A model generated the notes under the pieces. That model worked only from the letters and a program-made list of their open reading frames with translations, was not told the DNA's origin and searched no databases. From positions 20,754 to 84,753 of the forward strand of contig JAFUTW010000010.1 of NCBI GenBank assembly GCA_017484085.1: a DNA stretch of 64,000 bases, read 5' to 3'. A program made the translations under genes and the position numbers. The stretch is from Clostridia bacterium (GTDB lineage: Bacteria > Bacillota > Clostridia > Christensenellales > Aristaeellaceae). Below are positions 7,825 to 37,067 of this stretch, piece by piece; position 1 is the first letter of the stretch; the number at the start of each line of letters is the position of its first letter.

Positions 7825-8053
7825 AACGATTGCCCTGGCAGCCGGGGAACCTCCCGTACTGCCTCGCGTCATTCCCATAGAATGAACCGCATTACGGCAG
7901 GTCTCCACACTGCCGCACCGCAGGCCTGCGGAACTTTTCCTCCTTCTTGAATGTACGGAAAACCATTAAGTGGAGTGGTTCTCCGCCATTTAATGGGGTT
8001 GTCGGTTGATGTCGCTGCAGTCGGATTGTTGCCAAATCGTTCGCCGGTTTGGC

Positions 8054-23425: not shown

Positions 23426-24628
23426 TTACAGCAGTAAACAAAGCAATTGATAGTATACCGCCATCAGCGCGCAGAAGCTGAGCGCGACGGGCAGCGTGCG
23501 CCGGATGAGGCTGCCCAGCGAGATGTGGAAGGACTCCGCCGCGACGGCCAGACAGACATGGATCGGGGACAGCTGGCAGGCGGCGTGGGTGATGCACATA
23601 AGGAAGACCGCCAGCGGGATGCCCCCGGGCAGGGCGGCGAAGGCCAGCGGCGTGCCCAGGGCGATGGCGGAGGTCGTGCCGCCGATGAGGGTGGCCAGGA
23701 AGAAGAGGACAGCAAAGACGAGCCACCCCGGCAGGGGCAGGACACTCATTGCCTGCGGCAGCGTCTCCAGCACGCCCGTCACCGTGATGAACTCCTTGAG
23801 GACCAGGACGAGGTAGGTGGACAGCAGGATCTTCCACTCGAAGGAACTGCGGAACATGGGTTTCAGCTCCTGCGCGTTGAGATGCAGGAAGAGCGAAGCG
23901 CAGACGATCGAGGCGAGGACCGCGAGGCTGACGTCCATCCCGAAGGCCAGGATGAGCACGAGGATGAGCAGCAGGGGCCACAGGTGCCGAAACAGCGCGG
24001 CGACATACGGGGACCGCGGCAGCTTTTGCGCGCTGCCGGTGTGTCCCGGCACCTTGCGCAGAACAAACAGGAACCCGAGCAGCGCGAGGGCGCAGACAGG
24101 GGGGATCATGGAGACCATGAAGGGGCCTGCGGGAAGGCCAGTGAGGCTGAGCATCAGGATGACACCGGTGTAGGTGGGCAGGATGCTCTCCGGGATGTGC
24201 CGGAACCAGCTGGCGGTAAAGGCCTGCTCCTCCGGCGACAGATACCCGTCGGTCGCGTCCCGGACGATGTCCGCGCACAGGATCATCGCTGCGGCGCTGG
24301 GCAGCAGCCCGATGAAGACCGGCGCGCCGGAGGCGTTGATGCGGCGGTTGTGAAACAGCGCGTCCAGGTCCTGCTGTGCGCCGCGGAGCATCCCCCGCGT
24401 TTCCAGCACGCGCTGGAGGAAGGAGATCAGGTAGACCACGAGGATGACGGACAGGGAGGACCAGCCGGCAAGCGGACTGAGAAAGAGCCGCGCGCCGTCC
24501 GCCGGGGCGATCCGAAAGAGGGCCCAAAGGAGGGCGAGGCCGCCCAGCAGCGCCTGCCACAGCGGGCGGCGCAGGGCCAGCAGGACGATGATCGCGAGAA
24601 AGACGAGAGCGAGAAACAGGATTTGCAT
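23426..24628 (-). CDS. DUF401 family integral membrane protein, permease-like
   Basis: A 400-residue protein with about ten hydrophobic segments. It has features of the DUF401 family, distant relatives of ion/organic-acid permeases: INASGAPVFIGLLPSAAAM, ILPTYTGVILMLSLTGLP and a re-entrant-like LIGGTTSAIALGTPLAFA followed by CQLSPIHVCLAVAAE. The substrate is unknown. The ATG at 24628 has GGAGG. It lies 14 bases downstream of the LysR-type gene on the same strand, so regulator and permease are probably co-transcribed, and the pathway operon is divergent from them. An organic acid substrate is conceivable (inference). Confidence 0.8.
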   Translation of the reverse strand: MQILFLALVFLAIIVLLALRRPLWQALLGGLALLWALFRIAPADGARLFLSPLAGWSSLSVILVVYLISFLQRVLETRGMLRGAQQDLDALFHNRRINASGAPVFIGLLPSAAAMILCADIVRDATDGYLSPEEQAFTASWFRHIPESILPTYTGVILMLSLTGLPAGPFMVSMIPPVCALALLGFLFVLRKVPGHTGSAQKLPRSPYVAALFRHLWPLLLILVLILAFGMDVSLAVLASIVCASLFLHLNAQELKPMFRSSFEWKILLSTYLVLVLKEFITVTGVLETLPQAMSVLPLPGWLVFAVLFFLATLIGGTTSAIALGTPLAFAALPGGIPLAVFLMCITHAACQLSPIHVCLAVAAESFHISLGSLIRRTLPVALSFCALMAVYYQLLCLLL

Positions 24629-24642
24629 AATGCCTCCGCAGA

Positions 24643-25644
24643 TCAGATGGAATGGTTTTCTTTCTGCCGTCGCAGGTGCTCCACAAACTTGGCGTGATCC
24701 GCGTAGATGCTCCGGATCATGCCGATGCTGTCCTCCAGGGGCTTTGTAAGGTATTTCTGCCTGTGGTAGAGCAGGACGGTCTGCCGGTTGTTGCGGTATT
24801 CCCGTATGGGGAACACATTGAGAGTGGAAAAGCTTTTCCTGCTTGTGGCATAGAGATGCTGCAGCAGCATGGGGGTGCTGAAAAAGATGCCGTATCCGTC
24901 GGCGCAGAGCGGGACCAGGGAGCTGGTCAGCGAGGTGCGGATGCGGATGAAAGGAGGCGTGCCGTGCAGCGTCAGCTTTTCCACGATGTTCTCATGCAGA
25001 TGGCTGGAAGCGGGGTGCAGAAACATCGGCAGACGGGCGAAATCGAAAAGGGAGACGCCGGAAAGGAAGGCGGTTTTGCACGCCGGATACTGATCCGGGA
25101 AGGCTTCCTGCAGCATGCTGTCCGAGATGACGACGTAGAGGCTTTCGGTTTCCAGCGGGATGACGCAGAAGATTTCCGGGTCATACCGTCCAGTATACTC
25201 CGATTGAAGCGGAAGAGCCAGATCGATTTCGTTGCGTTTGACTGCCGAAGAAAGCTTGGAGGAGGTCCTTTCATCCAGCCTCAGGCTCATGTTGGGATAG
25301 GCTGCGGAGAACAGGGGAAAAAAGGCGTTGACGAAAGCCGTGGAGCGGTTCGGCGGCAGGCCGATGGAGATTTCCCCTTCAAACTGTTCGCGGGAATTGC
25401 TGATCTCGCTGACAAGCCGGTTCTCCCGGTTGATGATGTCCCGGGCGGCATCGATCAGACGGTAACCGGCTGGGGTGAGGCGCAGGGATGGATGCCGCTC
25501 GAAGAGGCGCACGCCGTAGGTCTCCTCCAGATGCTTGACGTGCAGGCTGACGGCCTGCTGAGTGACGAAGAGGGCCTCCGCCGCCTTGGAGAAGCTCATG
25601 AGTTCCGCGACCTTGAGAAAGTACTCGATATCGGTCATATTCAT
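24643..25644 (-). CDS. LysR-family transcriptional regulator
   Basis: A 333-residue regulator. The N-terminal winged helix-turn-helix is typical (MTDIEYFLKVAELMSFSKAA, then LFVTQQAVSLHVKHLEETYGVRLFER). The C-terminal LysR substrate domain starts near residue 90 (GEISIGLPPNRSTAFVNAF). ATG 25644 is preferred over the ATG six bases downstream because AGGAGA lies seven bases before it. It is divergent from the RraA-TctCBA-hydro-lyase operon, the standard layout for a LysR activator of the facing operon. The inducer is probably the transported organic acid or a product of it (inference). Confidence 0.92.
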   Translation of the reverse strand: MNMTDIEYFLKVAELMSFSKAAEALFVTQQAVSLHVKHLEETYGVRLFERHPSLRLTPAGYRLIDAARDIINRENRLVSEISNSREQFEGEISIGLPPNRSTAFVNAFFPLFSAAYPNMSLRLDERTSSKLSSAVKRNEIDLALPLQSEYTGRYDPEIFCVIPLETESLYVVISDSMLQEAFPDQYPACKTAFLSGVSLFDFARLPMFLHPASSHLHENIVEKLTLHGTPPFIRIRTSLTSSLVPLCADGYGIFFSTPMLLQHLYATSRKSFSTLNVFPIREYRNNRQTVLLYHRQKYLTKPLEDSIGMIRSIYADHAKFVEHLRRQKENHSI

Positions 25645-25832
25645 AGGCAGGTCTCCTAAAAAAGAATATAAAAGGATGGAAAAGGAAACGGCTGAAAAAA
25701 AGACAGAGAAAAAACGGCCGTCTGTTATGGCAATATCATGAAACGGCCATAAGAACGCGGAAAGCGGTGAAATACGAAGGCGGTTTGTCAATATTCACAC
25801 AAACAGATTCTCCATTCGGCTCCTCTTGCACA

Positions 25833-25860
25833 ATTATACAAGTTTTTCATTGTAAGTCAA
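25833..25860 (-). promoter_or_regulatory. sigma-A promoter of the LysR gene
   Basis: Read on the minus strand: -35 TTGACT (25860-25855), 16-base spacer, -10 TATAAT (25838-25833). It leaves a leader of about 180 bases before the LysR start, in which nothing was recognised. Confidence 0.65.
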
Positions 25861-25983: not shown

Positions 25984-26685
25984 ATGGATTATGATTACAG
26001 ACCGCTTCCCGAGCAGATCCCCGAGGAGCTCATCGCCCGCGCATCCCGCCTGAGCACCCCGAACCTTTGCGACGGCTTCGCAAAGCTGAAGCTGAACCCC
26101 GTCCACTACACCCTGGACGCGCGGATCAAGCCCATCAACGACCAGATGAAGATCGTCGCCACCGCTTCCACGGTCGACACCAAGGACGGCGACAACCTGC
26201 CGATCCACGTGGCGATCTACTCCTGCAAGCCGGGGTACTGCCTGGTGGTCGCCGGCAAAGCCGCTGAAGAGCGCGCCTATATGGGCGACCTGATGGGCAG
26301 CGCGGCGGACGCGATCGGCGTCTGTGGCATCATCGTGGACGGGTACATTCGTGACAAGCTCGGGCTTAACGAGATCGGCATGCCGATGTTCAGCCGCGGA
26401 TACAAGCCCACCAGCCCCGCCAAGGTGGGCCCGGGCGCCATCAACACCGAGGTGGAGTGCGGCGGCGTGAAGGTGCAGCCCGGAGACCTCATCATGGCGG
26501 ACTGCGACGGCATCGTCTGTGTCCCGCGGGACATGATCGAGGACGTCCTTGCGAAAGCCGAGGAGAAGGTGGCTTACGAAGGCGGGCGCGTGAACGCCAT
26601 CGCCAATTACAGAAAGTGCAAGGCAGAGGGGAAGGAGCTCCCCGACCTGACCCCGGGCTGGGTCAAAGAGATGCTAGGCAGGTAA
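25984..26685 (+). CDS. RraA-family protein (HMG/CHA aldolase-like)
   Basis: A 233-residue member of the RraA / 4-hydroxy-4-methyl-2-oxoglutarate aldolase family. These class II, divalent-metal enzymes cleave 4-carboxy-4-hydroxy-2-oxoacids to pyruvate plus an oxoacid, or decarboxylate oxaloacetate. Visible signature parts are GDLMGSAADAIGVCGIIVDGYIRD (Arg-Asp at the active site), MPMFSRGYKPTSP and VQPGDLIMADCDGIVCVP. It is the first gene of an operon with a dehydrogenase, a tripartite tricarboxylate transporter and a two-subunit hydro-lyase. A catabolic aldolase or decarboxylase role fits better than RNase E regulation, since the latter is gamma-proteobacterial. Confidence 0.85.
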   Translation: MDYDYRPLPEQIPEELIARASRLSTPNLCDGFAKLKLNPVHYTLDARIKPINDQMKIVATASTVDTKDGDNLPIHVAIYSCKPGYCLVVAGKAAEERAYMGDLMGSAADAIGVCGIIVDGYIRDKLGLNEIGMPMFSRGYKPTSPAKVGPGAINTEVECGGVKVQPGDLIMADCDGIVCVPRDMIEDVLAKAEEKVAYEGGRVNAIANYRKCKAEGKELPDLTPGWVKEMLGR

Positions 26686-26713
26686 GCCGGACAAGACAGA
26701 GGAGGAAAAGACG

Positions 26714-27583
26714 ATGACGGTTGGATTTGTCGGTTTCGGTGAGGCGGCCTCTTCCATCGCGGCCGGTCTGCATGAGGAAGGCGTTGCCCGCATCCTTTGC
26801 TTTGATGTGATGCAGGAGGATCCCCGTTTCAAAGAGGGATTTGACAAAAAAGTAGCCGCCTGCGCGGGCGAGAAGGCGCAGGATGCCCCGGCGGCCTGCC
26901 GCGAGGCGGACATCGTGTTCTCCGCGGCGCCGTCCACCTACGCGGTCGCCGCAGCGGAAGGCGCTGTCGCCGGCGTGCACGACGGACTGATCTTCGTGGA
27001 CGTCTCCACCGCCACTCCCGCGGAAAAGAAGAAGATCGCCGCGATGGTAGAGGAGAAGGGCGCGAAGTTCGTGGATGCGGCGATGATGGGCGCGCTGCTC
27101 AAGGACAGACATCAGGTGCCCATGCTGCTGAGCGGCAGCGGCGCGAAGGCCATGATGGAGATGATGGAGCCGTACCACATGCGCCTGGAGTATGTGGAGG
27201 GCGCGCCGGGCACAGCGACCTCCATCAAGTTCATCCGCTCCATCACGGCCAAGGGCCTCAGCTGCCTTTTGATCGAGTCCCTGCAGGCGGCGCAGCACTT
27301 CGGGGTGGAGGACACGATCGTGGATTCCTTCATCGACAGCTTCGGCCCCAAGTTCAAGGGCATCATCGACGGGTATGTCTCCGGCGCCATCATCCACGCG
27401 GCGCGGCGCGAGCACGAGCTGCAGAACGTTGTGGACTTCCTGAAGAGCGAGGATCTGCCCTTCACCATGGCGGAAGCGACGCGGCAGAAGCTCGGCTGGC
27501 TGGATGAAAACGACGTGAAGGGCCGCTTCGAAGGCGGCGTGCCCAGGGACTGGAAGAAGGTCCTGGAGGGCTGGAAACTCTGA
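26714..27583 (+). CDS. 6-phosphogluconate dehydrogenase-like NAD(P)-dependent oxidoreductase
   Basis: A 289-residue beta-hydroxyacid dehydrogenase-type protein. The N-terminal Rossmann fold starts VGFVGFGEAASSIAAGL (GxGxxA) and continues to the SAAPSTYAVAAAEGAV strand. The C-terminal all-alpha domain has SIKFIRSITAKGLSCLLIESLQAAQ, where a Lys occupies the catalytic position of the family, and resembles the DUF1932 group. Members oxidise 3-hydroxyacids. It lies 28 bases after the RraA gene, so it likely oxidises a hydroxy-acid intermediate for the aldolase step (inference). Confidence 0.82.
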   Translation: MTVGFVGFGEAASSIAAGLHEEGVARILCFDVMQEDPRFKEGFDKKVAACAGEKAQDAPAACREADIVFSAAPSTYAVAAAEGAVAGVHDGLIFVDVSTATPAEKKKIAAMVEEKGAKFVDAAMMGALLKDRHQVPMLLSGSGAKAMMEMMEPYHMRLEYVEGAPGTATSIKFIRSITAKGLSCLLIESLQAAQHFGVEDTIVDSFIDSFGPKFKGIIDGYVSGAIIHAARREHELQNVVDFLKSEDLPFTMAEATRQKLGWLDENDVKGRFEGGVPRDWKKVLEGWKL

Positions 27584-27597
27584 TACGCAACGCAGAT

Positions 27598-27621
27598 ATA
27601 CTGTTCGGCGAATAACAGTAT
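27598..27621 (+). other. intercistronic stem-loop before tctC
   Basis: ATACTGTT and AACAGTAT pair perfectly around an 8-base loop with no T tract. It probably protects or processes the tctC part of the transcript. Confidence 0.5.
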
Positions 27622-27652
27622 GCAATAAACAACCATGAAAAGGAGTAAGACA

Positions 27653-28618
27653 ATGAAGAAGAATTTCGTGGCTATCCTGGTTGCCCTGCTCGTGCTCGCT
27701 CTGGCGGGCGGCGCTCTGGCGGAGCGCGCGTATCCCTCCCGCACCATCGAGTTCGTCGTGCCCTTCGGCGCGGGCGGATCGGCTGACATCTTCGCCCGCA
27801 GCTTTGCGGACCTTCTGAGCGCCAAGCTGGGCGTCAACATCAACACCGTCAACAAGCCCGGCGCGGGCGGCGTGACCGGCCTCACCTACGTGGAGGATCA
27901 GGAGGCGGACGGCTACACCCTGTGCCTGGTGACCCCTTCCATGGCCATTGCGGAAGCCAAGGGCCTGTATGATTTCCGCGGCAAGTTCCAGCCTGTCGCC
28001 CTGATGGAGCAGGACATCTACGTCATCTCCGTCCTGGACAGCAACCCTTACTTCACCGATTGGGACGGCTTCGTGGCCTATGCCCGCGAGAATCCGGGCT
28101 ACGTCACCACCGGCGGCTCCTCTGCCGGCGGCCTGGATGAGTACGAGGCGCTGCAGCTGGGCGAGCACATCGGCGCGGAGCTCACCTATGTTCCGTATGA
28201 CGGATACGGCGAGTACAAGGCGGCTTTCCTGGGCGGCGAAGTGGATCTGTACATCGACAAGCTCTCTTCCTTCACCCAGATGGCGCAGTACAGCGAGATC
28301 AAGCCCATGGCGGTCGTAAATCCCACCGGCATCTCTGCTGCGGGTCTGGAAGGCGTGCCCAGCACCGTGGAGCTCGGCATCGACTTCACCACCGGCTCCT
28401 GGCGCGGCATCGTCGTGAAGAAGGGCACCCCGGACGAGGTCGTTACCCTGCTGCGCGAGACGGCCAAAGAGATCTATGATTCCCCCGAATTCCAGGCCGT
28501 TCTGGAAAAGGACAATGCCAATCTTGTCAATGCCTATCGCGACGCGGAAGAGTTCCAGCAGCTGATCGACAGCGAGACGGAAAAGTACACGGATATCGTG
28601 GCGCGCTACAGCAAGTGA
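27653..28618 (+). CDS. tctC: tripartite tricarboxylate transporter substrate-binding protein (TctC/Bug)
   Basis: A 321-residue exported binding protein. Signal peptide MKKNFVAILVALLVLALAGGALA is followed by the Bug-family start YPSRTIEFVVPFGAGGSADIFARSFADLL and NKPGAGGVTGLTYV, which form the carboxylate-binding water-bridged pocket. ATG 27653 has AAAGGAG seven bases upstream, better than the ATG six codons earlier. Bug proteins bind citrate, tartrate, aconitate, glutamate or nicotinate. With tctB and tctA following it is a complete secondary importer. Two hairpins after it likely keep its mRNA more abundant than that of the membrane parts. Confidence 0.93.
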   Translation: MKKNFVAILVALLVLALAGGALAERAYPSRTIEFVVPFGAGGSADIFARSFADLLSAKLGVNINTVNKPGAGGVTGLTYVEDQEADGYTLCLVTPSMAIAEAKGLYDFRGKFQPVALMEQDIYVISVLDSNPYFTDWDGFVAYARENPGYVTTGGSSAGGLDEYEALQLGEHIGAELTYVPYDGYGEYKAAFLGGEVDLYIDKLSSFTQMAQYSEIKPMAVVNPTGISAAGLEGVPSTVELGIDFTTGSWRGIVVKKGTPDEVVTLLRETAKEIYDSPEFQAVLEKDNANLVNAYRDAEEFQQLIDSETEKYTDIVARYSK

Positions 28619-28644
28619 TCCCCATAACCGGTCTATCCCGAATT

Positions 28645-28729
28645 CCCCGGCCGTGCACTGCGGCCGGGGGTTTCCGGATAAATGGGGAGTTGTTAAGGAA
28701 TTCACGGGGCGGTAAAGTTTCTTTACCGC
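28645..28729 (+). other. two intercistronic hairpins between tctC and tctB
   Basis: First hairpin: CCCCGGCCG (28645-28653) with CGGCCGGGG (28661-28669), followed by only GTTTCC, so a partial terminator. Second: GCGGTAAAG (28709-28717), TTT loop, CTTTACCGC (28721-28729), ending 12 bases before the tctB ribosome site. They fit differential expression of binding protein over permease. Confidence 0.6.
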
Positions 28730-28751
28730 AGGACAGAAAGGGAACGACGAC

Positions 28752-29240
28752 ATGCTTGAAATGGTATTTAACGGCGTGCTGGCGGCGATCTTCCTCTTCT
28801 TTATCATCGGCGGCACGCAGATCCCCCGCTTATCCCGCCCGGCGGACATCGTGGAAGCGGGCGGCTTCCCCATCGTCTTCGGCGCGATCGGCCTCATCCT
28901 GCTGATCTTTGAGATCATCAGCCAGGCAAAGAAACTCCGCAAGGGGGAGCGCGAGACGGAAGAAGCGCCGCTCTATCCGGCGGGCGCGGCGAAGCTGGCG
29001 GTCATCCTCGCCATGACCATCGCATACATCCTGCTGGTGAAAACCGCGGGCTTTGCTATCCTCACCGTCTGCTACACGTTCGCGGCGCTTTTCCTGCTCG
29101 GCTCCAAAAAGCCTTTGTTCAACGCGGTCTTTGCGGTGCTGGCGACGCTGGTGCTGGTGCTGATCTTCGGACGGTTCTTCGGCATCACGCTGCCGCGCGG
29201 CGTCGGCGTCATCAAGGACCTCAGTTTCTATCTGTACTGA
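28752..29240 (+). CDS. tctB: tripartite tricarboxylate transporter small membrane subunit TctB
   Basis: A 162-residue protein with four hydrophobic helices and a charged loop (about residues 57-75, KKLRKGERETEE) between the second and third, the standard TctB layout. Its position between tctC and tctA and its length match the family, which is poorly conserved in sequence. ATG 28752 has AAGGGA upstream. It forms the integral membrane complex with TctA. Confidence 0.85.
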   Translation: MLEMVFNGVLAAIFLFFIIGGTQIPRLSRPADIVEAGGFPIVFGAIGLILLIFEIISQAKKLRKGERETEEAPLYPAGAAKLAVILAMTIAYILLVKTAGFAILTVCYTFAALFLLGSKKPLFNAVFAVLATLVLVLIFGRFFGITLPRGVGVIKDLSFYLY

Positions 29241-29255
29241 GAGGAGGGAGAGACA

Positions 29256-30743
29256 ATGCTACAGGGTTTGCTGAATTTTGCCAACTTCCAGACGCTGCTC
29301 TTCCTCGTCGTGGGCACCGCGTGGGGCATGCTGGCCGGCGCGCTGCCGGGCATCTCCGCCTCCCTGGCGGTCATCCTCATCATGCCGTTTACCTACTCCA
29401 TGGGCGCGGTGCAGAGCATCATCGCCCTGGTGGCGGTATATGTGGGCGGCATGTGCGGCGGTTCCATTTCCGCCATCCTGCTGCGCACGCCGGGCACGCC
29501 CAGCGCGGTCGTCACCGTGTTCGACGGCTACCCGATGGCCAAGAACGGACAGGCGGGCAAGGCGCTGGGCCTGGCCATCGCGGCCTCCGCGGTGGGCGGC
29601 ATCATCTCCGGCATCGCAATGGTCATCTTTGCGCCGCTGCTCTCCCAGGTCGCCATGAAGTTTCAGAGCGGCGAGTTCTTTGCGCTCGGTCTCCTTGGGC
29701 TGTCCTGCACGGCGAGCATGGCCACCAAGAACTGGAAAAAGGCGCTGATCTCCGGCTGCTTCGGCGTGCTCATCTCCACCATCGGGCTGGACTACATGTC
29801 CGGCGCAAACCGCTTTACATTCGGCACGACCTGGCTGGCGGACGGCATCGACTTCGTGCCCGTCATGATCGGCGCGTACGCTTTTGCGGAGGTATACCGC
29901 AATGTGCTGAAAAAGCCGGATCCGGACGCTCCGAAGGCGGAGGTTTCCAATGGGGATATGGAGTTCATCGGGCCTGCACACATCCTGAAGGAGTGGGTGA
30001 CTTACCTCAAGTCCTCCATCATCGGCACGGTCGTGGGCATCATCCCTGCGGCGGGCGGCTCCATCGCCTCCTTCATCAGCTATGGCGAGGCGGTGCGCTC
30101 CTCCAAGCACCCGGAGACCTTCGGCAAGGGCGAGGAACTGGGCATCGTCGCCAGCGAGGCGGCCAACAACGCCGCTGTGGGCGGATCCCTCGTGCCCACC
30201 ATCTGCCTGGGTATCCCGGGCGGCACGGTCACGGCGATCATGCTTTCCGCTTTCACCATGCACGGCCTGGTGGCCGGCCCCACGCTGATCCGCAATCAGC
30301 CGGACCTGCTCTTCTCCATCCTGTGGGCGATCGTGTTCGCCTCCCTGCTGCTGTACGTCATCGGCAAGATTCTGGCCAAGCAGTTCGCCAAGGTTTCACA
30401 GCTCGACTACAGCCTGGTCGGAGCGATGATGCTGGTGCTGGGCATCGTAGGTTCTTACACGCTGAAGGGCAATGTCCGTGAAGTGGCTATCATGCTGGTC
30501 TTCAGCCTCATCGGCCTGGTGATGGAACACTACGGCTACTCCGTGGCGACGATGATCCTGGGCCTGGTGCTGGGGCCGATCACCGAGAAGGGCTTCCGCA
30601 AGCAGCTCATCATCTCCCGCGGGGACTGGACGATCTTCTTCCGCAAGCCGATCTGCCTCATCATCCTGATCGTGGCGGTCATCAGCTTTGCGATGCCCTT
30701 TATCCGCAGCGCGCGCAAGAAGAAAGCGGAGGGAAGCAAATGA
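29256..30743 (+). CDS. tctA: tripartite tricarboxylate transporter large permease TctA
   Basis: A 495-residue permease with about 11-12 helices. The family's conserved stretch is present near the start (GTAWGMLAGALPGISASLAVILIMPFTYSM) and repeated as an internal half (IGTVVGIIPAAGGSIASFISYG, then NNAAVGGSLVPTICLGIPGG). It takes up the carboxylate delivered by TctC using the ion gradient. AGAGGAGG lies before ATG 29256. The stop overlaps the start of the next gene by four bases, tying transport directly to the hydro-lyase. Confidence 0.95.
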   Translation: MLQGLLNFANFQTLLFLVVGTAWGMLAGALPGISASLAVILIMPFTYSMGAVQSIIALVAVYVGGMCGGSISAILLRTPGTPSAVVTVFDGYPMAKNGQAGKALGLAIAASAVGGIISGIAMVIFAPLLSQVAMKFQSGEFFALGLLGLSCTASMATKNWKKALISGCFGVLISTIGLDYMSGANRFTFGTTWLADGIDFVPVMIGAYAFAEVYRNVLKKPDPDAPKAEVSNGDMEFIGPAHILKEWVTYLKSSIIGTVVGIIPAAGGSIASFISYGEAVRSSKHPETFGKGEELGIVASEAANNAAVGGSLVPTICLGIPGGTVTAIMLSAFTMHGLVAGPTLIRNQPDLLFSILWAIVFASLLLYVIGKILAKQFAKVSQLDYSLVGAMMLVLGIVGSYTLKGNVREVAIMLVFSLIGLVMEHYGYSVATMILGLVLGPITEKGFRKQLIISRGDWTIFFRKPICLIILIVAVISFAMPFIRSARKKKAEGSK

Positions 30744-31252
30744 ACGTAAAAAAGATCAACGTGCCGTACAAGGGAGAGGCGCTGGACCTGAAGGCCGGAG
30801 ACCTTGTTGAACTGAACGGCGTCATCTACTGCGGGCGGGACGCGGTCCTGCCGCATATCGTTGCGATGGCCAAGGAGGGAACGCTTTCCGAGCATGAGAT
30901 CGACATCAAAGGCGCGGTGATCTTCCACACTGCGGTGAGCTGCGCCGGCATCGCGCCGACGACCACAAGCAAGCCGGAGATCGAAGGCTCCATCGTTCCG
31001 CTGTCCGAGGCGGGCGCCAAATTCCATCTTGGCAAAGGCCGCATCAGCCCCGAAACGGTCGAGGGCCTGAAGCAAAACGGCGCGTATTTCCTGATCACGC
31101 CCCCGGTGGCCGCGCTGCTGACGGCACAGATGAGCGAATGCCGCGCCCTGGTGCATCCGGAGTTCGGCATGGAAGCGTTTTATGAAATCAAAGTGACGGA
31201 CTTCCCGGCCATTGTCGCGGTAGCGGACGGCGAAACCATCTTTTCGGACTGA
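30740..31252 (+). CDS. Fe-S hydro-lyase, fumarase/tartrate dehydratase beta-type subunit
   Basis: A 170-residue protein matching the C-terminal (beta) domain of class I fumarases and L-tartrate dehydratase. Typical parts are LKAGDLVELNGVIYCGRDAVLPHI, KGAVIFHTAVSCAG, IAPTTTSKPEIEGSIVPL and AKFHLGKGRISPETVEGLKQNGAYF. This domain completes the active site of the Fe-S alpha subunit encoded immediately downstream. The beta-before-alpha order is unusual. The ATG overlaps the tctA stop (ATGA), showing translational coupling to the transporter. Confidence 0.88.
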   Translation: MNVKKINVPYKGEALDLKAGDLVELNGVIYCGRDAVLPHIVAMAKEGTLSEHEIDIKGAVIFHTAVSCAGIAPTTTSKPEIEGSIVPLSEAGAKFHLGKGRISPETVEGLKQNGAYFLITPPVAALLTAQMSECRALVHPEFGMEAFYEIKVTDFPAIVAVADGETIFSD

Positions 31253-31263
31253 GAGGAGATAAC

Positions 31264-32130
31264 ATGCTTGCATTAGACAAAGTGACTGCCGATGTGGCAA
31301 CGGCGGTCGTCGAAGCCAGCTCCCACTGGCGGGAGGATCAGCTTGCCTGCTGGCGTGCGGCTTGTGAGAGAGAGACGATCCCGCGCGCAAAATGGGCGAT
31401 GGAAAACTTCCTTAAAAACGCAGAAGCCGCGGATCTGCATCATTCAGCGCTGTGCGACGATACCGGAACGCCTCATCCGTTTCTGGAGATCGGGGATGAG
31501 GCCGTGCTGCCGGCCGGATTCCTCCCGGCGATGGAGGCCGGCATCCGCAAAGGGCTGAACGATTTGCCCGCCCGGCCGATGGGCGTGCGGGGCAACGAGC
31601 TGGAGCGCATCTCCCAGTGCAAGGGCCTGTATGATGAGCCCGGCATGCTGATGCCCGCGCCGACGCAGATCCGCCGCATCCCTGGAAAGAAGATCCGCTT
31701 CACGATCCTCATGCTGGGCGGCGGCCCGGAGATCCGCAGCCGCACGCAGCCCATCTTCCACATGCATTCGCTGGAGCACGTCATCGAGGAGATGATCAAC
31801 TGGGCCGTGCCGCAGGTCGCGGCGCTCGGCTGCCAGCCGGTGACGCTGTCCTTCGGCCTCGGCCGCACGGCGGTGGAAGCGTCCTCCCTCTCCCTGGAAG
31901 CCATGAAGGACGGCCGTTACGACGTCCAGAGCGAGATCGAAAAGCGCATCACGGACGAGGTGAACGCGCGCGGCATCGGCCCCATCGGCCTGGGCGGATC
32001 GACTTCCGTGCTGGCAACCTTTATCAAGATCGGCAACATGCGCGGCAGCGGTTTCCGCGTGGTTTCCATGCGGCCCAACTGCTGCATGGAGATCCGCAAG
32101 GCGAGCCGCGAGTGGGAAGCCGGAGTGTAA
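31264..32130 (+). CDS. Fe-S hydro-lyase, fumarase/tartrate dehydratase alpha-type subunit
   Basis: A 288-residue alpha subunit of a class I (4Fe-4S) hydro-lyase. Three cysteines sit where cluster ligands are expected: Cys64 in ALCDDTGTP, Cys190 in ALGCQP and Cys273/274 in RPNCCME. GLGGSTSVLATFIKIGNM near 242 is the usual glycine-rich loop. It adds or removes water on a dicarboxylate such as fumarate/malate or tartrate, or on a substituted analogue. The operon context (TctCBA import, dehydrogenase, RraA-type aldolase) suggests a substrate other than malate, e.g. tartrate or a 4-carbon to 6-carbon hydroxylated acid (inference). Confidence 0.88.
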   Translation: MLALDKVTADVATAVVEASSHWREDQLACWRAACERETIPRAKWAMENFLKNAEAADLHHSALCDDTGTPHPFLEIGDEAVLPAGFLPAMEAGIRKGLNDLPARPMGVRGNELERISQCKGLYDEPGMLMPAPTQIRRIPGKKIRFTILMLGGGPEIRSRTQPIFHMHSLEHVIEEMINWAVPQVAALGCQPVTLSFGLGRTAVEASSLSLEAMKDGRYDVQSEIEKRITDEVNARGIGPIGLGGSTSVLATFIKIGNMRGSGFRVVSMRPNCCMEIRKASREWEAGV

Positions 32131-32271: not shown

Positions 32272-32300
32272 TTGAAAACAGCCATAGAAACCGTTATAAT
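32272..32300 (+). promoter_or_regulatory. sigma-A promoter of the liv operon
   Basis: -35 TTGAAA (32272-32277), 17-base spacer, perfect -10 TATAAT (32295-32300), about 80 bases before the livH start. Confidence 0.8.
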
Positions 32301-32382: not shown

Positions 32383-33246
32383 TTGAGCATATTCCTGCAA
32401 GCATGCGTGAACGGCCTGCTGATGGGAGGCTTCTATTCCCTCATGGGCATGGGGCAGAACGTGATTTTCGGCGTAATGAAAATCGTCAACTTCTGCCACG
32501 GCGAAATGCTGATGGTTGGCATGTATCTCACGTATGTGCTCTCCACGACCTTCGGGCTGGACCCCTATCTCTGCGTACCCCTCGTGGCGATCCTCATGTT
32601 CTGCCTGGGCGCGGTGATCCAGCACACGCTGATCACGCCGTCTCTGGGCACCAAGAGCTTTACCAACCTGCTGTTCCTCACGGTGGGCCTGGGGCTGCTG
32701 CTCTCCAACGGGGCGCTGGTGCTCTTCGGCAGCGAGTACCGCACCATCCCCACGACCTACTCGCAGACGTACATCAGCCTGGGGCCTGTCAACCTGGCGC
32801 TGCCCAGGCTCATCAGCTTCGGCGTGCTGATTGTCATCTCGGTCGTGCTGTTTGCCTTCCTCAAATACACGAAGACGGGCAAACAGATCCGCGCGGTCTC
32901 GCAGAATCCTGTCGGCGCTGAGGTGGTCGGCATCAACACGAAGCGCATCTACATCCTCACCTACGGCATCGGCACCGCCCTGGCGGGCGTGGCCGGCGCG
33001 CTGCTGACCGGTTTTTACACCATCTTCCCGACGGCGGGCGCGAGCTTCGGCTTCCGCGCGCTCATCGTGGTCGTGGTGGGCGGCCTGGGCTCTATCCCGG
33101 GCGCGTTCTTCGCCGGCATCTTCCTGGGGCTTCTGGAGACGATGGTGGCGCTGTTCATCAGCCCGTCCTACAGCGATCTCATCGTCTTTATCACGTTCAT
33201 CGTGATTCTGGTCGTCCGTCAGCTTATCATTATCAGGAGGAAGTAA
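32383..33246 (+). CDS. livH: branched-chain amino acid-type ABC transporter permease LivH
   Basis: A 287-residue permease starting with TTG at 32383 after a strong AGGAGG. About eight helices. The signature start NGLLMGGFYSLMGMGQNVIFGVMKIVNFCHGEMLM is typical of LivH, as is GKQIRAVSQNPVGAEVVGINTKRIY in the cytoplasmic loop contacting the ATPase. First gene of a five-gene importer. Family members move leucine, isoleucine, valine and also urea, amides or aromatic compounds, so the ligand cannot be fixed from sequence. Confidence 0.93.
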   Translation: MSIFLQACVNGLLMGGFYSLMGMGQNVIFGVMKIVNFCHGEMLMVGMYLTYVLSTTFGLDPYLCVPLVAILMFCLGAVIQHTLITPSLGTKSFTNLLFLTVGLGLLLSNGALVLFGSEYRTIPTTYSQTYISLGPVNLALPRLISFGVLIVISVVLFAFLKYTKTGKQIRAVSQNPVGAEVVGINTKRIYILTYGIGTALAGVAGALLTGFYTIFPTAGASFGFRALIVVVVGGLGSIPGAFFAGIFLGLLETMVALFISPSYSDLIVFITFIVILVVRQLIIIRRK

Positions 33247-33248
33247 CG

Positions 33249-34313
33249 ATGAACGAGAAGATTCAAGCCGTCCGCGTTTACCGCAGGAACCTCACGATCG
33301 TGCTGGGGCTCATCCTGCTTATCTTCTGCCTGATCCCGGTCTTCGTCAAATCCCCGTACATCCTGAACATCTTCATCCTGGTCTTCTACATGTCCACGCT
33401 CTCCATGGCCTGGAACCTGCTGGGCGGCATGACGGGCCAGAACTCCCTGGGCCACGCGGCGTACATGGGCCTGGGCGCGTACGTCTCCTGCCTGTTTATC
33501 ACCAAGGCGCACGTCAACCCCTGGGTCTCCGCCGTGCTGGGCATGGTGGTGGTCGGCCTGGTGGCGGGCATCATCTTCTTCCCGTGCTTCATCCTGCGCG
33601 GGCCGTACTTCACGCTGGTCTCCATCGCCTTCGGCGAGGCGCTGCGCCAGTTCATCATCAACTCCACCTTTTTCGGGCGGGCCAGCGGCATCGGCCTCCC
33701 GTTCAAGCGGGGCGATTCCTTCCTGGATTTCCGCTTTGCGGGCAAAGAGCCGTACTACTATATCGGGCTGGTCATGGTCATCCTCATCTACCTGCTGATG
33801 AAGAAAATCGAGCGCTCCCGCATGGGCTACGCGCTGCGCACAATCCGCGAGGATGAGGACGCGGCGGCAGCCATCGGCATCAACCCCATCCGCTACAAGA
33901 TCATGGCTGTCGTCGTCTCCGCGATGGTGGCGGCGCTCGTCGGCTTCTTCTACGCGAGCTATACGCGCTACATCGATCCGGAGCTGATGATCCAGGCCAA
34001 ATCCACGGAGTCTGTCCTGCCCGCCGTCGTGGGCGGCGCGGCCTATGTGGAAGGCCCGCTGGTGGGCGGCCTCATCATGATCCCGCTCTCCGAGTTCCTG
34101 AGGGCGAAGTACAGCGCCATCCTGCCGGGCATCAACATGCTGCTCTATGCCGTGGCGCTGCTGGCGGTCATCCGCTTCCGCCCCACGGGCATCCTCGGCT
34201 GGTACATGCACAGCGGGCTGAAGAAGACGATTGACACGAAGATCCTCAAAAAGCCGCCTGTAGAGGTACTGGAAGCGGTAGAGCTGGATAAACGCCGCGG
34301 GAAGGAGGCCTGA
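33249..34313 (+). CDS. livM: branched-chain amino acid-type ABC transporter permease LivM
   Basis: A 354-residue partner of LivH with about nine helices. Signature parts are MAWNLLGGMTGQNSLGHAAYMGLGAY, GPYFTLVSIAFGEALRQFI and the cytoplasmic loop SRMGYALRTIREDEDAAAAIGINPIRYK. The ending VVGGAAYVEGPLVGGLIMIPLSEFLR is also characteristic. It begins two bases after livH with AGGAGG inside the livH end, and the next gene starts two bases later, so the cluster is tightly coupled. Confidence 0.93.
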   Translation: MNEKIQAVRVYRRNLTIVLGLILLIFCLIPVFVKSPYILNIFILVFYMSTLSMAWNLLGGMTGQNSLGHAAYMGLGAYVSCLFITKAHVNPWVSAVLGMVVVGLVAGIIFFPCFILRGPYFTLVSIAFGEALRQFIINSTFFGRASGIGLPFKRGDSFLDFRFAGKEPYYYIGLVMVILIYLLMKKIERSRMGYALRTIREDEDAAAAIGINPIRYKIMAVVVSAMVAALVGFFYASYTRYIDPELMIQAKSTESVLPAVVGGAAYVEGPLVGGLIMIPLSEFLRAKYSAILPGINMLLYAVALLAVIRFRPTGILGWYMHSGLKKTIDTKILKKPPVEVLEAVELDKRRGKEA

Positions 34314-34315
34314 AC

Positions 34316-35062
34316 ATGGAGAAGACACCCATCATTGAGGTACAGCACATCACCAAACGCTTTAAGGGCCTGACGGCCGTCAAGGACGTCTCCTTCTCCA
34401 TCCGGGAGGGGGCCATCACCGGCATGATCGGCCCCAACGGCGCGGGCAAGTCCACCACCTTCAACATGATCTGCGGATATTATCCGCCGACAGAGGGTAA
34501 GATCTTCTTCCGCGGGCAGGACATCACGGACAAGAAGGCCTATGAATACACGAAGATGAAGATCGCCCGCACCTTCCAGATCATGAAGCCGCTGAAGAAC
34601 CTGAGCGTGCTGGAAAACGTGGTCGCTTCCTGCTACTTCGGCCACGCCGCCGCAAAGAGCGAGCACGAGGCGCGGGAGCGCGCCATGGACGTGCTGCAGT
34701 TTACCGGCCTTTACGAGAAACGGCACATCCTCTCCAAGGACATGGGCACGCCGGACCAGAAACGGCTGGAGATGGCGCGCGCCCTGGCGACGAAGCCGGA
34801 GATGCTCTTCCTGGATGAGAACATGGCCGGCCTCAACCCCGCGGAGACGGAAGCGGCCATCGAGCTCATCCGCGAGATCAACCGCTCCGGCGTCACCATC
34901 TTCCTCATCGAGCACATCATGCAGGCGGTTGTCAGCCTCTGCGAGGAGGTCATCGTGCTGCACCACGGCGAGAAGATCGCGGAGGGCACGCCCGAGCAGG
35001 TCATGAACGATCCGTACGTCATGGAGGTCTATCTGGGCAAGAAGGAGGGATCTCATGCTTAA
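34316..35062 (+). CDS. livG: branched-chain amino acid-type ABC transporter ATPase LivG
   Basis: A 248-residue ATPase. Walker A is GPNGAGKSTT near residues 39-48. The ABC signature is degenerate: GTPDQKRLEMARAL in place of an LSxGQ-type motif, and Walker B reads MLFLDENMAGLNP with Asn where Pro is usual. The catalytic Glu is kept, as is the switch His in LIEHIMQAV. It probably pairs with the canonical LivF, giving one standard and one altered ATP site, an asymmetry known in other ABC systems (inference). ATG 34316 follows GGGAAGGAGG. Confidence 0.92.
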   Translation: MEKTPIIEVQHITKRFKGLTAVKDVSFSIREGAITGMIGPNGAGKSTTFNMICGYYPPTEGKIFFRGQDITDKKAYEYTKMKIARTFQIMKPLKNLSVLENVVASCYFGHAAAKSEHEARERAMDVLQFTGLYEKRHILSKDMGTPDQKRLEMARALATKPEMLFLDENMAGLNPAETEAAIELIREINRSGVTIFLIEHIMQAVVSLCEEVIVLHHGEKIAEGTPEQVMNDPYVMEVYLGKKEGSHA

Positions 35063-35762
35063 GGTTGAAGGGCTGCGCGCGGGCTACGGCGCGATCAACA
35101 TCCTGTGGGATCTGACCTTTGAAGTGAGGGACGGCGAGATCGTCGCGATCCTGGGTTCCAACGGCGCCGGAAAGACGACGATGGTGCGCACGGTTTGCGG
35201 CATGCTGCGCCCGTCCGCGGGCTCCGTCCTGTTTAACGGGGAGGAGCTGGCCAAAAAGAATTCCCGCGCCGTGCTGGACAGCGGCATCGTGCAGGTGCCG
35301 GAAGGGCGCCAGCTCTTTACGGAGATGACGGTGCTGGAGAACCTGGAGATGGGCGCGTTCAATAAAGAGACGCGCGCGGCCTTCCAGCAGAATCTCCGGA
35401 AGGTGTACCAGTGGTTCCCCAAGCTGGAGGAGCGCGCAAAGCAGTCCGCCGGCACGCTCTCCGGCGGCGAGCAGCAGATGGTCGCCGTCGCACGTGCGCT
35501 GATCGGCATGCCCAAGCTGCTCATCCTGGATGAGCCGTCCCTGGGCCTGGCGCCCAATATCGTGGACGACATCCTGGCGGTGGCCTCTTCCATGGCCCGC
35601 AACGACGGCATCTCCGTCATGCTGGTGGAACAGGACATCACCAAGGCGCTGGCCTGCGCGGACCGCGGCTACGTCATCGAAAACGGGCGCATCGCCCTCA
35701 CCGGCTCCGCGGCGGAGCTGAGCGCGAACGAGCACGTCAAGAAAGCCTATCTCGGCATCTGA
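35055..35762 (+). CDS. livF: branched-chain amino acid-type ABC transporter ATPase LivF
   Basis: A 235-residue ATPase, canonical throughout: Walker A GSNGAGKTTMV, signature LSGGEQQMVAVARAL, Walker B LLILDEPSLGLAPNIV and switch MLVEQDI. The family phrase VQVPEGRQLFTEMTVLENLEMGA is present. Its ATG overlaps the livG end by eight bases and uses AAGGAGG within livG. It should form the heterodimeric motor with LivG. Confidence 0.95.
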   Translation: MLKVEGLRAGYGAINILWDLTFEVRDGEIVAILGSNGAGKTTMVRTVCGMLRPSAGSVLFNGEELAKKNSRAVLDSGIVQVPEGRQLFTEMTVLENLEMGAFNKETRAAFQQNLRKVYQWFPKLEERAKQSAGTLSGGEQQMVAVARALIGMPKLLILDEPSLGLAPNIVDDILAVASSMARNDGISVMLVEQDITKALACADRGYVIENGRIALTGSAAELSANEHVKKAYLGI

Positions 35763-35773
35763 TCCCGGTGATG

Positions 35774-35795
35774 AGCGCCGTGGCAGTTCGGCGCT
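35774..35795 (+). other. intercistronic stem-loop between livF and the binding-protein gene
   Basis: AGCGCCG and CGGCGCT pair around an 8-base loop, with no T tract. It probably stabilises the binding-protein part of the message. Confidence 0.5.
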
Positions 35796-35825
35796 TGATC
35801 ATAAAATCTTAAGGAGGAAATACGC

Positions 35826-37067
35826 ATGAAAAAGATCATCTCCCTTCTGTGCATCGCCCTGGTGATCGCGCTGGCTTCCGCAGCTTTCGCGGATGAGGCG
35901 CCCATCAAGATCGGCACCATCTATGCGATGTCCGGCGGCAACGCGGCCATCGGTGAGAACATCCTGCGCGGCATCGATTTCGCCGTGGCGGAAATCAACG
36001 CCAAGGGCGGCGTGAACGGCCGCATGCTGGAAGTCGTCCGCGGCGACCATGCCGGCGATCCGGCGCAGGGCCGTTCCGAGGCTGAGCGCCTCATCACCCA
36101 GGAGCATGTGGATGTCATGATGGGCTGCCACATGTCCACCGTTACCGAGGTTGTGGCGCAGGTCTGCACGCAGTACGGCGTGCCGATGATCACCGCTATC
36201 TCCACCCTCGACAGGCTGACCGATGCGGACCATGAGGATATGGACTTCTTCTTCCGCCTCTGCCCGCTCAACTCCGTCTATGTCGAAGACATGCTGAAGT
36301 ACCTGAAGGATTCCGCGCAGCAGACCGGCGAAGAGATCAAGACCATCGCGATCTTCACCGACCGCGCGGCGATCGGCCAGGAGCTCATCCGCTGCGTCGA
36401 GCTGTACAAGGACGCTTATGGCTTTGACCTCGTCGCGACGATCGACTACTCCTCCAACGCCACCGACCTGAGCGCCCAGGTGCTGGCCCTCAAGCAGGCC
36501 AACCCCGACGCCATCCTCTGCGACTCCTACATCGGCGACGCGACGCTGTTCGTGCAGACGCTGAAGGCGCAGAACTACATCCCCAAGATGATCGTGGCCA
36601 AGGCCAACGGCTTCACCGATCCGGCCTTCATCACCAACCTGGGCAGCGCCGCCAACGGCGTGGCTTCCGTGGTTGAGTTCAACCCCGACCTCATCAACGG
36701 CAAGGAGATCAACGAGGAGTTCAAGGCGCAGTACGGCGTCAACATGAACGGCCACTCCGCCGAGTCCTACACCGTGGTTTGGATCTTCAAGACCGCTATC
36801 GAAGCTGCCGGCTCCACCGACGGCGAGGCCGTCCGTGACGCCATCGCGGCGCTCGACATCGAGGGCGAGTTCCCCGGCGGACGCAAGATCGTTCTGCCCT
36901 ATGACAAGATCAAGTTCGAGAACTACGAGCTGGCCGGTGCGCCGCACTTCCGCGACAACACCTCCGCTTCCGTCGCTATCGCCCAGGTTCAGGACGGCGA
37001 GTGGAAGACCGTTTGGCCGTTCGACTTCACGGACACCAAGATCCTCTATCCCGCTCCGCTGCAGTAA
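35826..37067 (+). CDS. livJ: branched-chain amino acid-type ABC transporter substrate-binding protein
   Basis: A 413-residue exported protein of the Peripla_BP_6 family. Signal peptide MKKIISLLCIALVIALASAAFA precedes the canonical start APIKIGTIYAMSGGNAAIGENILRGIDFAVAEINAKGG. VVRGDHAGDPAQGRSEAERLITQEHVDVMMG follows, and the Leu/Ile/Val-type hinge SYIGDATLFVQTLKAQNYIPK is near residue 235. Start ATG 35826 has AAGGAGG. Being last in the operon rather than first, it may gain expression from the upstream hairpin. The ligand is an amino acid or similar small molecule. Confidence 0.92.
   Translation: MKKIISLLCIALVIALASAAFADEAPIKIGTIYAMSGGNAAIGENILRGIDFAVAEINAKGGVNGRMLEVVRGDHAGDPAQGRSEAERLITQEHVDVMMGCHMSTVTEVVAQVCTQYGVPMITAISTLDRLTDADHEDMDFFFRLCPLNSVYVEDMLKYLKDSAQQTGEEIKTIAIFTDRAAIGQELIRCVELYKDAYGFDLVATIDYSSNATDLSAQVLALKQANPDAILCDSYIGDATLFVQTLKAQNYIPKMIVAKANGFTDPAFITNLGSAANGVASVVEFNPDLINGKEINEEFKAQYGVNMNGHSAESYTVVWIFKTAIEAAGSTDGEAVRDAIAALDIEGEFPGGRKIVLPYDKIKFENYELAGAPHFRDNTSASVAIAQVQDGEWKTVWPFDFTDTKILYPAPLQ

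Follow-up and report, generated by a model that had tools for sequence, protein, structure and literature searches.

A Clostridia operon with an RraA-type aldolase, a DUF1932 dehydrogenase, a TctCBA importer and an unnamed fumarase-type hydro-lyase, possibly serving an unusual plant- or lignin-derived acid

The lower part of the gallate and protocatechuate 4,5-cleavage pathways (GalB/LigJ, GalC/LigK, LigI) combines an RraA-fold aldolase with a hydratase, and two kinds of oxalomesaconate hydratase are known to us, the PIG-L (GalB) and the amidohydrolase (LigJ) kind. Here we consider an operon at positions 25984..32130 of a 64,000-nucleotide stretch (the whole of it is called the window below) of contig JAFUTW010000010.1 from the draft genome GCA_017484085.1 of a Clostridia bacterium, an anaerobe of gut type. 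The operon encodes an RraA-family aldolase, a DUF1932 dehydrogenase, the three subunits of a tripartite tricarboxylate transporter (TTT; TctC, TctB and TctA) and a two-subunit fumarase-type hydro-lyase, designated HLab, with the alpha subunit HLa and the beta subunit HLb. We read it as running the end of gallate/protocatechuate-type chemistry without oxygen, in resemblance to the last steps of aerobic gallate breakdown. The aldolase has its best PDB match in 3noj (E 2e-27), an aldolase of 4-hydroxy-4-methyl-2-oxoglutarate (HMG) and 4-carboxy-4-hydroxy-2-oxoadipate (CHA); for the reactions of HMG/CHA aldolase we follow those portions of PMC5065237 that were available, according to which the enzyme also decarboxylates oxaloacetate.

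Proposed route and recurrence of the gene set

For each enzyme we infer the reaction, as we do the order of the steps and the substrate, and for the route as a whole (import by TctCBA, oxidation by the DUF1932 dehydrogenase, hydration or dehydration by HLab, and cleavage of a CHA/HMG-type acid by RraA) we estimate a probability of about 0.45. TctCBA would import a hydroxylated or unsaturated di- or tricarboxylate, which would either belong to the oxalomesaconate/CHA/HMG family itself or be the reduced counterpart of such an acid. The dehydrogenase would most likely set the oxidation level, giving the imported hydroxy acid the 2-oxo group needed by RraA, while HLab, as a predicted [4Fe-4S] hydro-lyase, would most likely add or remove water at a double bond of the 4-oxalomesaconate type. 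The route would end with retro-aldol cleavage of a 4-hydroxy-2-oxo acid by RraA, the candidates being CHA and HMG, and the expected products either pyruvate and oxaloacetate or pyruvate and a second pyruvate. The substrate of the operon is probably an unusual plant- or lignin-derived acid.

The first-pass annotation, made from the letters of the window, had already named these parts, and all of them are in place, with Pfam cut-offs passed by nine of nine genes (RraA through HLa, together with the adjacent LysR and DUF401 genes); TctA, TctB and TctC make a complete TTT set by Pfam. It had also asked whether the gene set co-occurs elsewhere, and the set does recur in distant genomes. A scan of a genome collection confirmed 386 relatives of the hydro-lyase, and the loci studied were those of the best 80 of them, with two further loci (L036 and L037) added, 82 in all. 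The dehydrogenase and RraA occur together in eight of these loci, the dehydrogenase alone in one, RraA alone in none and neither of them in 73. The corresponding Fisher p value of 2.5e-10 overstates the case, because the relatives are not independent; the pairing at hydro-lyase loci is nevertheless more than chance. A Tct importer or one of the tripartite ATP-independent periplasmic (TRAP) type is present at all nine loci that hold the dehydrogenase. The order dehydrogenase, RraA, HLb, HLa and then the tct genes is found in a Sporomusaceae metagenome-assembled genome (MAG; L044), a Desulfovibrio (L046), a Clostridiaceae MAG (L102) and a Sphaerochaetaceae MAG (L105), and the set is also present in L038-L041, which include Hungatella effluvii (L040) and H. 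hathewayi (L041). In the Hungatella loci and a Lachnoclostridium MAG (L039) a DUF6282 gene and a TAXI-type TRAP importer replace the tct genes seen in L038. The dehydrogenase of L038, counted here as present, lies in two frames overlapping by a few bases (L038:2949-3816) and is either broken or an assembly error. In a tree of HLa the loci with dehydrogenase and RraA are drawn at three places, although the well-supported branches force only one origin; L042 was put by hand into this group of the tree, though its contig carries no RraA. Nothing among the titles listed in a search of open papers describes a set of TTT transporter and RraA.

The hydro-lyase clade and its other settings

HLa narrowly misses the cut-off of the general subfamily model TIGR00722 (92.1 of 100.65) and scores 101.6 of 276 with NF004885, while HLb reaches 73.6 of 145.15 with TIGR00723 and 66.9 of 238 with NF005310. 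With the tartrate dehydratase equivalogs both are far below the cut-off (alpha 41.6 of 365, beta 45.7 of 264), and none of the curated NCBIfam cut-offs for fumarase or tartrate dehydratase is reached by either subunit. In a three-row alignment the HLa cysteines C64, C190 and C273/C274 are invariant, and these three sites are expected to carry a [4Fe-4S] cluster. The motifs of the alignment are CDD(T/S)G.PH, GGGP.IR and CC.E.R; the canonical CQDTG, GSEN and TTSAR read CDDTG, GPEIR and TTTSK in HLa, the last being TSSNK in relatives. The extra arginine and histidine would suit a substrate bearing a further carboxylate. A search of open papers for Leishmania fumarase residues found nothing.

An order-level search gave an HLa match in 161 of 297 genomes; among the matches listed outside the source genome, only two exceeded 40% identity (46-47%), both in other gene settings, and the listed matches of a plasmid search reached at most 31%. 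In a quick tree of 85 rows, 83 clade rows are split with full SH-aLRT support from two canonical alpha subunits (the only ones that passed the motif filter, so that the canonical side consists of these two and holds no MesA row), and the long branch between the sides is drawn as 1.92 + 1.73 changes per column. Judged by these comparisons, HLab is a clade of its own, apart from the canonical fumarases, unnamed and widespread.

The long branch, the altered motifs and the low equivalog scores also bear on a rival explanation, a tartrate- or malate-type route, in which HLab would dehydrate a tartrate isomer to oxaloacetate, RraA would act as oxaloacetate decarboxylase and the dehydrogenase would serve a side step at tartronate semialdehyde or oxaloglycolate. 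HLab is homologous to two-subunit fumarase and tartrate dehydratase, with TIGR00722 missed by little; the oxaloacetate decarboxylation noted above (in the same portions of PMC5065237) would supply the second activity; and in one genome of the phylum (L133) a malic enzyme and a hydro-lyase of more canonical type are encoded within 6 kb of a DUF1932 dehydrogenase. Set against the three features of HLa and HLb just named, however, this leaves the tartrate- or malate-type route improbable.

Since HLa and HLb match only fumarase-type families and have no homology to GalB (PIG-L) or LigJ (amidohydrolase), HLab would be at most an analogue of the known 4-oxalomesaconate hydratases; no [4Fe-4S] oxalomesaconate hydratase turned up among the titles listed in a search of open papers.

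The clade also occurs in other gene settings. By tblastn at E 1e-10, the 82 loci contain MmgE/PrpD (46), an unnamed protein of about 300 residues (44), a PF15617 lyase (42), methylaspartate ammonia-lyase (10), CitF (4) and a citrate-synthase-type lyase (4). A C-C lyase of one of these families or RraA is present in 59 of the 82 loci, and in 52 of them it lies no more than 5 kb from HLa. The product or substrate of HLab may accordingly be a beta-hydroxy acid that undergoes cleavage afterwards; the other 23 loci, including seven of the ten ammonia-lyase loci, show no such lyase.

Three of these settings deserve description. At L036 and L037 and at roughly half of the loci L057-L117 (among them L064, L083 and L106) a set recurs in which HLb and HLa accompany MmgE/PrpD and a reductase (aldo-keto reductase, Ldh2 or 2-hydroxyacid dehydrogenase). 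It also holds the protein of about 300 residues, which has no Pfam match, and the PF15617 lyase, and adds either a phosphonopyruvate-decarboxylase-like thiamine pyrophosphate enzyme (the L096 copy is above the cut-off) or an ATP-grasp protein; some of the loci have genes for a sugar transferase and an aminotransferase as well. Apparently this is an uncharacterised polysaccharide-linked pathway of gut and rumen bacteria. In L045, L047-L053, L056 and L082 the hydro-lyase relatives adjoin methylaspartate ammonia-lyase (the L045 copy is above the cut-off) and an amidohydrolase, with a molybdenum hydroxylase subunit in several loci and citrate-lyase-type genes in three, possibly an N-heterocycle catabolic cluster. 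Finally, in L054, L055, L066, L089, L093 and L114 their neighbours are FAD_binding_2 and Fe-S subunits similar to those of a fumarate or tricarballylate reductase; some of these loci also have CitF/CitE, or else CoA-ligase/citrate-synthase-type lyases.

Such neighbours would fit a mesaconate- or aconitate-type hydratase that yields an acid resembling citramalate or citrate, RraA in the window cleaving a separate acid derived by the DUF1932 dehydrogenase, with two short routes sharing one importer. The ammonia-lyase, CitF and citrate-synthase-type lyase genes and the FAD/Fe-S reductases of the clade loci speak for it, as do the hydration of mesaconate by class I fumarases (reported in the portions of PMC4682846 available) and a plasmid locus (L206) that pairs DUF1932 with the tricarballylate genes TcuA/TcuB and a TTT importer. 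Yet the lyase and ammonia-lyase genes were not found at the loci with dehydrogenase and RraA, and among 20 glutamate-mutase stretches only three contain an HLa relative, at 23-29% identity. We therefore consider this arrangement unlikely. Membership of HLab among the mesaconases was likewise not adopted, the relatives in those three stretches being distant, although the test is weak, as more distant mesaconases could be missed.

DUF1932 dehydrogenase loci and pathway markers

The lead to the pathway comes from the dehydrogenase. The first-pass annotation called it a dehydrogenase, which holds and can be made more exact, as the protein belongs to the DUF1932 branch. It was found in 11 of 398 genomes of the phylum, the source genome included, and five of ten regions examined around these matches contain RraA (L130, L132, L134, L138, L139). 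In three of them (L132, L134, L139) a GalB-type PIG-L gene adjoins RraA and a DUF6282 gene is also present; the PIG-L protein of L132 matches 4-oxalmesaconate hydratase 5cgz with E 6e-54 (3e-13 for the next family member), and the three RraA proteins exceed the cut-off of the CHA-aldolase model NF006731 (227, 203 and 199 vs 179). In L130 an aconitase-family pair adjoins the dehydrogenase instead.

A tblastn search of plasmids with the L132 dehydrogenase gave 144 records, and in 12 of the 14 stretches that we chose from the 30 listed, RraA or CHA aldolase is annotated within 8-9 kb of DUF1932. By annotation, one stretch (L168) is a gallate cluster that has DUF1932 and a dicarboxylate symporter as neighbours, two (L203 and L205) contain protocatechuate-4,5 clusters, and L166 has genes for oxalomesaconate tautomerase, CHA aldolase and PIG-L. 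Pyrone hydrolases of the LigI type are encoded in L163 and L161, beside DUF1932 or about 3 kb away; these amidohydrolases match 2-pyrone-4,6-dicarboxylate hydrolase with E 5e-77 and 4e-50, respectively. In other bacteria, then, DUF1932 dehydrogenases are genomically linked to oxalomesaconate/CHA enzymes.

A role as dehydrogenase of 4-carboxy-2-hydroxymuconate-6-semialdehyde was not adopted for DUF1932. LigC is a Gfo/Idh/MocA-type enzyme, the Sphingomonas cluster L205 has a separate enzyme of this type, and DUF1932 also lies close to the gallate genes of L168, where this step is not required.

The hydro-lyase itself is tied to oxalomesaconate-type chemistry, as far as gene neighbourhood can tell, by L042. 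This locus belongs to the subclade of the window (its HLa is 80% identical). Its dehydrogenase gene is truncated at the end of the contig and stands in one row with HLb, HLa, DUF6282, a PIG-L gene of the GalB type and a TRAP importer of the TAXI type, in that order. L042 is the only one of the 82 HLab loci with a GalB-type gene; RraA is present in eight.

In a further explanation HLab would act upstream, dehydrating an imported polyhydroxy acid whose product is oxidised by the dehydrogenase, with RraA using a hydroxyl already present in the substrate. The coexistence of GalB with HLab in L042 would agree with this, and so would three plasmid stretches (L160, L162, L208) that have the dehydrogenase, RraA and a transporter but no hydratase annotated adjacent to them, the RraA step perhaps not needing one. 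On the other hand, the nine window genes scanned include no acid-sugar kinase or isomerase, and HLab adjoins RraA and the dehydrogenase in four more loci, as would be expected of consecutive steps; an upstream position of HLab seems unlikely.

As for the window RraA, it keeps the pattern D-X20-R-D (D102-X20-R123-D124), as does the GalC-type aldolase of L168; we take these letters to be the metal and catalysis motif of HMG/CHA aldolases. The row own_L171, being in a wrong reading frame, was excluded from the comparison, and in L138b the motif matches at another place. PMC5065237, in the portions available, mentions one of two motifs but does not spell out its residues.

A number of observations weigh against the proposed route. 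The window RraA is under both NCBIfam CHA-aldolase cut-offs (127.8 of 179 and 110.8 of 304.5), D-X20-R-D is not common to L044, L130, L132, L134, L139 and others aligned, and S-P stands at the place of G144-T145 of the Pseudomonas putida enzyme, whose activity is lowered when these residues are changed (PMC5065237, portions available). Even the RraA proteins of L132, L134 and L139 remain under the second CHA-aldolase model TIGR02798 (186-208 of 304.5). RraA is absent from the stretch examined in five of the ten dehydrogenase regions (L131, L133, L135, L136, L137), RraA or CHA aldolase from two of the 14 plasmid stretches (L204, L206), and L205, a protocatechuate cluster, has a Gfo/Idh/MocA enzyme besides DUF1932. 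L042 combines HLab with a GalB-type hydratase, and its contig of 9.1 kb shows no RraA; HLab there is thus no plain stand-in for GalB, and a sharp displacement of GalB by HLab was dropped as a firm claim. Relatives of oxalomesaconate tautomerase, gallate dioxygenase (both searched with L168 queries) and LigI were found in none of the 82 loci, and no GalB or LigI relative in the source genome, which at 81% completeness proves little. DUF6282 was rejected as a pathway marker, since none of 28 other DUF6282 stretches yielded, at E 1e-10, a match to the dehydrogenase, to RraA, to PIG-L or to HLab.

Some further observations concern DUF6282. Of three plasmid matches opened, two have a PIG-L neighbour, and in the one from Thermus oshimai (L164, DUF6282 and PIG-L) a CHA aldolase and a DUF1932 protein also adjoin. 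In L173, L175, L177, L179 and L180, from the same phylum, DUF6282 proteins are near molybdenum hydroxylase genes, and the DUF6282 protein of L040 gives a weak phosphotriesterase match. A search of open papers gave no match for DUF6282, and none for DUF1932 with dehydrogenase.

The first-pass annotation had seen import, hydration or dehydration, oxidation and C-C cleavage by an uncharacterised pathway, with no gallate-type marker and a possibly new substrate. This remains a fair reading of the window taken alone, where neither a ring-cleavage dioxygenase nor an oxalomesaconate tautomerase is among the nine genes scanned, and the pathway is indeed uncharacterised; the relatives, however, do supply markers, namely GalB-type, CHA-aldolase and LigI-type genes. 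For this reason the substrate more probably leads into a known end-reaction than represents an altogether new route.

One could go further and suppose that strict anaerobes have an oxygenase-free route to CHA, in which HLab adds a third type of oxalomesaconate hydratase, unrelated to the other two. The DUF1932 family would then supply the pathway dehydrogenase across Bacillota, Proteobacteria and Thermus, and the clade would serve other tricarboxylate-like chemistry both in the polysaccharide-type clusters found in rumen and gut bacteria and in the cluster with methylaspartate ammonia-lyase and molybdenum hydroxylase. This wider view is doubtful. If it is true, gut and sediment anaerobes could use acids from the breakdown of lignin and tannin phenols, an end-reaction usually described for aerobes would extend to anaerobes, and the DUF1932 dehydrogenases and the Fe-S hydro-lyase clade with its 386 relatives would gain their first pathway context; a short list of substrates could then be tested directly in cultured Hungatella strains.

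Layout, genome setting and comparison with known systems

Table 1. Genes and promoter-like sites of the operon and its surroundings (positions in the window)
Feature	Position	Strand	Basis
LysR-type regulator, divergent	24643..25791	-	PF00126 and PF03466
DUF401 membrane protein behind the LysR gene	23426..24628	-	Pfam cut-off passed
Promoter-like site, divergent intergenic region	25833..25860	-	11/12 consensus bases; consensus match only
RraA-family class II pyruvate aldolase, candidate 4-hydroxy-2-oxo acid aldolase	25984..26685	+	PF03737, 133 bits vs cut-off 24.5
DUF1932 NAD(P)-binding dehydrogenase	26714..27583	+	PF09130 (DUF1932) and PF03446 (NAD_binding_2) above cut-off
TctC substrate-binding protein	27635..28618	+	PF03401, 110 bits
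TctB small membrane subunit	28752..29240	+	PF07331, 55 bits
TctA large membrane subunit	29256..30743	+	PF01970, 458 bits
HLb, hydro-lyase beta subunit, fumarase C-terminal type (Fumerase_C)	30740..31252	+	PF05683, 74.6 bits
HLa, hydro-lyase alpha subunit (Fumerase)	31264..32130	+	PF05681, 158.6 bits
Promoter-like site ahead of downstream ABC genes	32272-32300	+	Consensus match

The four-base overlap of tctA and the HLb gene, reported at first pass, is borne out by the coordinates (shared ATGA), and the remaining gaps within the operon are, 5' to 3', 28, 51, 133, 15 and 11 bases. To judge from domain starts and ribosome-binding sequences, translation of LysR more likely begins at about 25644 and that of TctC at about 27653. 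The divergent LysR gene and the DUF401 gene behind it lie where they had been placed. LysR has a counterpart, 61% identical, in the same divergent position in L038-L041, but DUF401 occurs in none of the 82 relative loci and is therefore probably a neighbouring gene outside the module. Directly downstream, the translations at 32383-37067 look like the permeases, two ATPases and binding protein of a branched-chain-type ABC transporter, which, given the promoter-like site ahead of it, is probably a separate transcription unit; branched-chain-type ABC genes are also close to related loci on plasmids.

An Rfam scan gave no match inside the operon; elsewhere in the window a malK-I cis-regulatory RNA (RF03069) was found at 7819-7993 on the minus strand (110.5 bits vs the gathering score of 60.3). 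The G+C content drops from about 0.61 to 0.48-0.52 at the window end (60001-64000). The source draft genome of 2.43 Mb has five RraA genes, and two more groups of TctC/TctA and RraA genes lie on its contigs 13 (L169) and 42 (L172), the latter with a dihydrodipicolinate-synthase-family aldolase and a split transketolase in addition.

As to the known systems, the operon has in common with TctCBA transporters all three subunits, its TctC being one of ten in the genome. The best PDB matches of the dehydrogenase, 4ezb, 3qsg and 1i36, are DUF1932 proteins with the same domains and an aligned lysine common to all three, and their titles assign no reaction; it is the loci analysed here that connect DUF1932 with oxalomesaconate/CHA genes. 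With two-subunit class I fumarase and L-tartrate dehydratase, HLab shares both domains and the three conserved cysteine sites, but differs in forming a separate clade, with about 30% identity and changed motifs. The putative mesaconase MesAB of glutamate fermenters, as presented in the available portions of PMC4682846, is likewise a two-subunit hydratase of the fumarase fold; the HLa relatives of glutamate-mutase stretches are the few distant ones mentioned above. The gallate and protocatechuate 4,5 pathway resembles the operon not only in its aldolase and hydratase but also in the DUF1932 dehydrogenases and acid importers near its genes in several other bacteria. It differs in that no ring-cleavage dioxygenase, tautomerase or LigI was found in the operon, and in that its hydratase is of the PIG-L or amidohydrolase kind, whereas that of the operon has the fumarase fold with predicted [4Fe-4S] cysteines.

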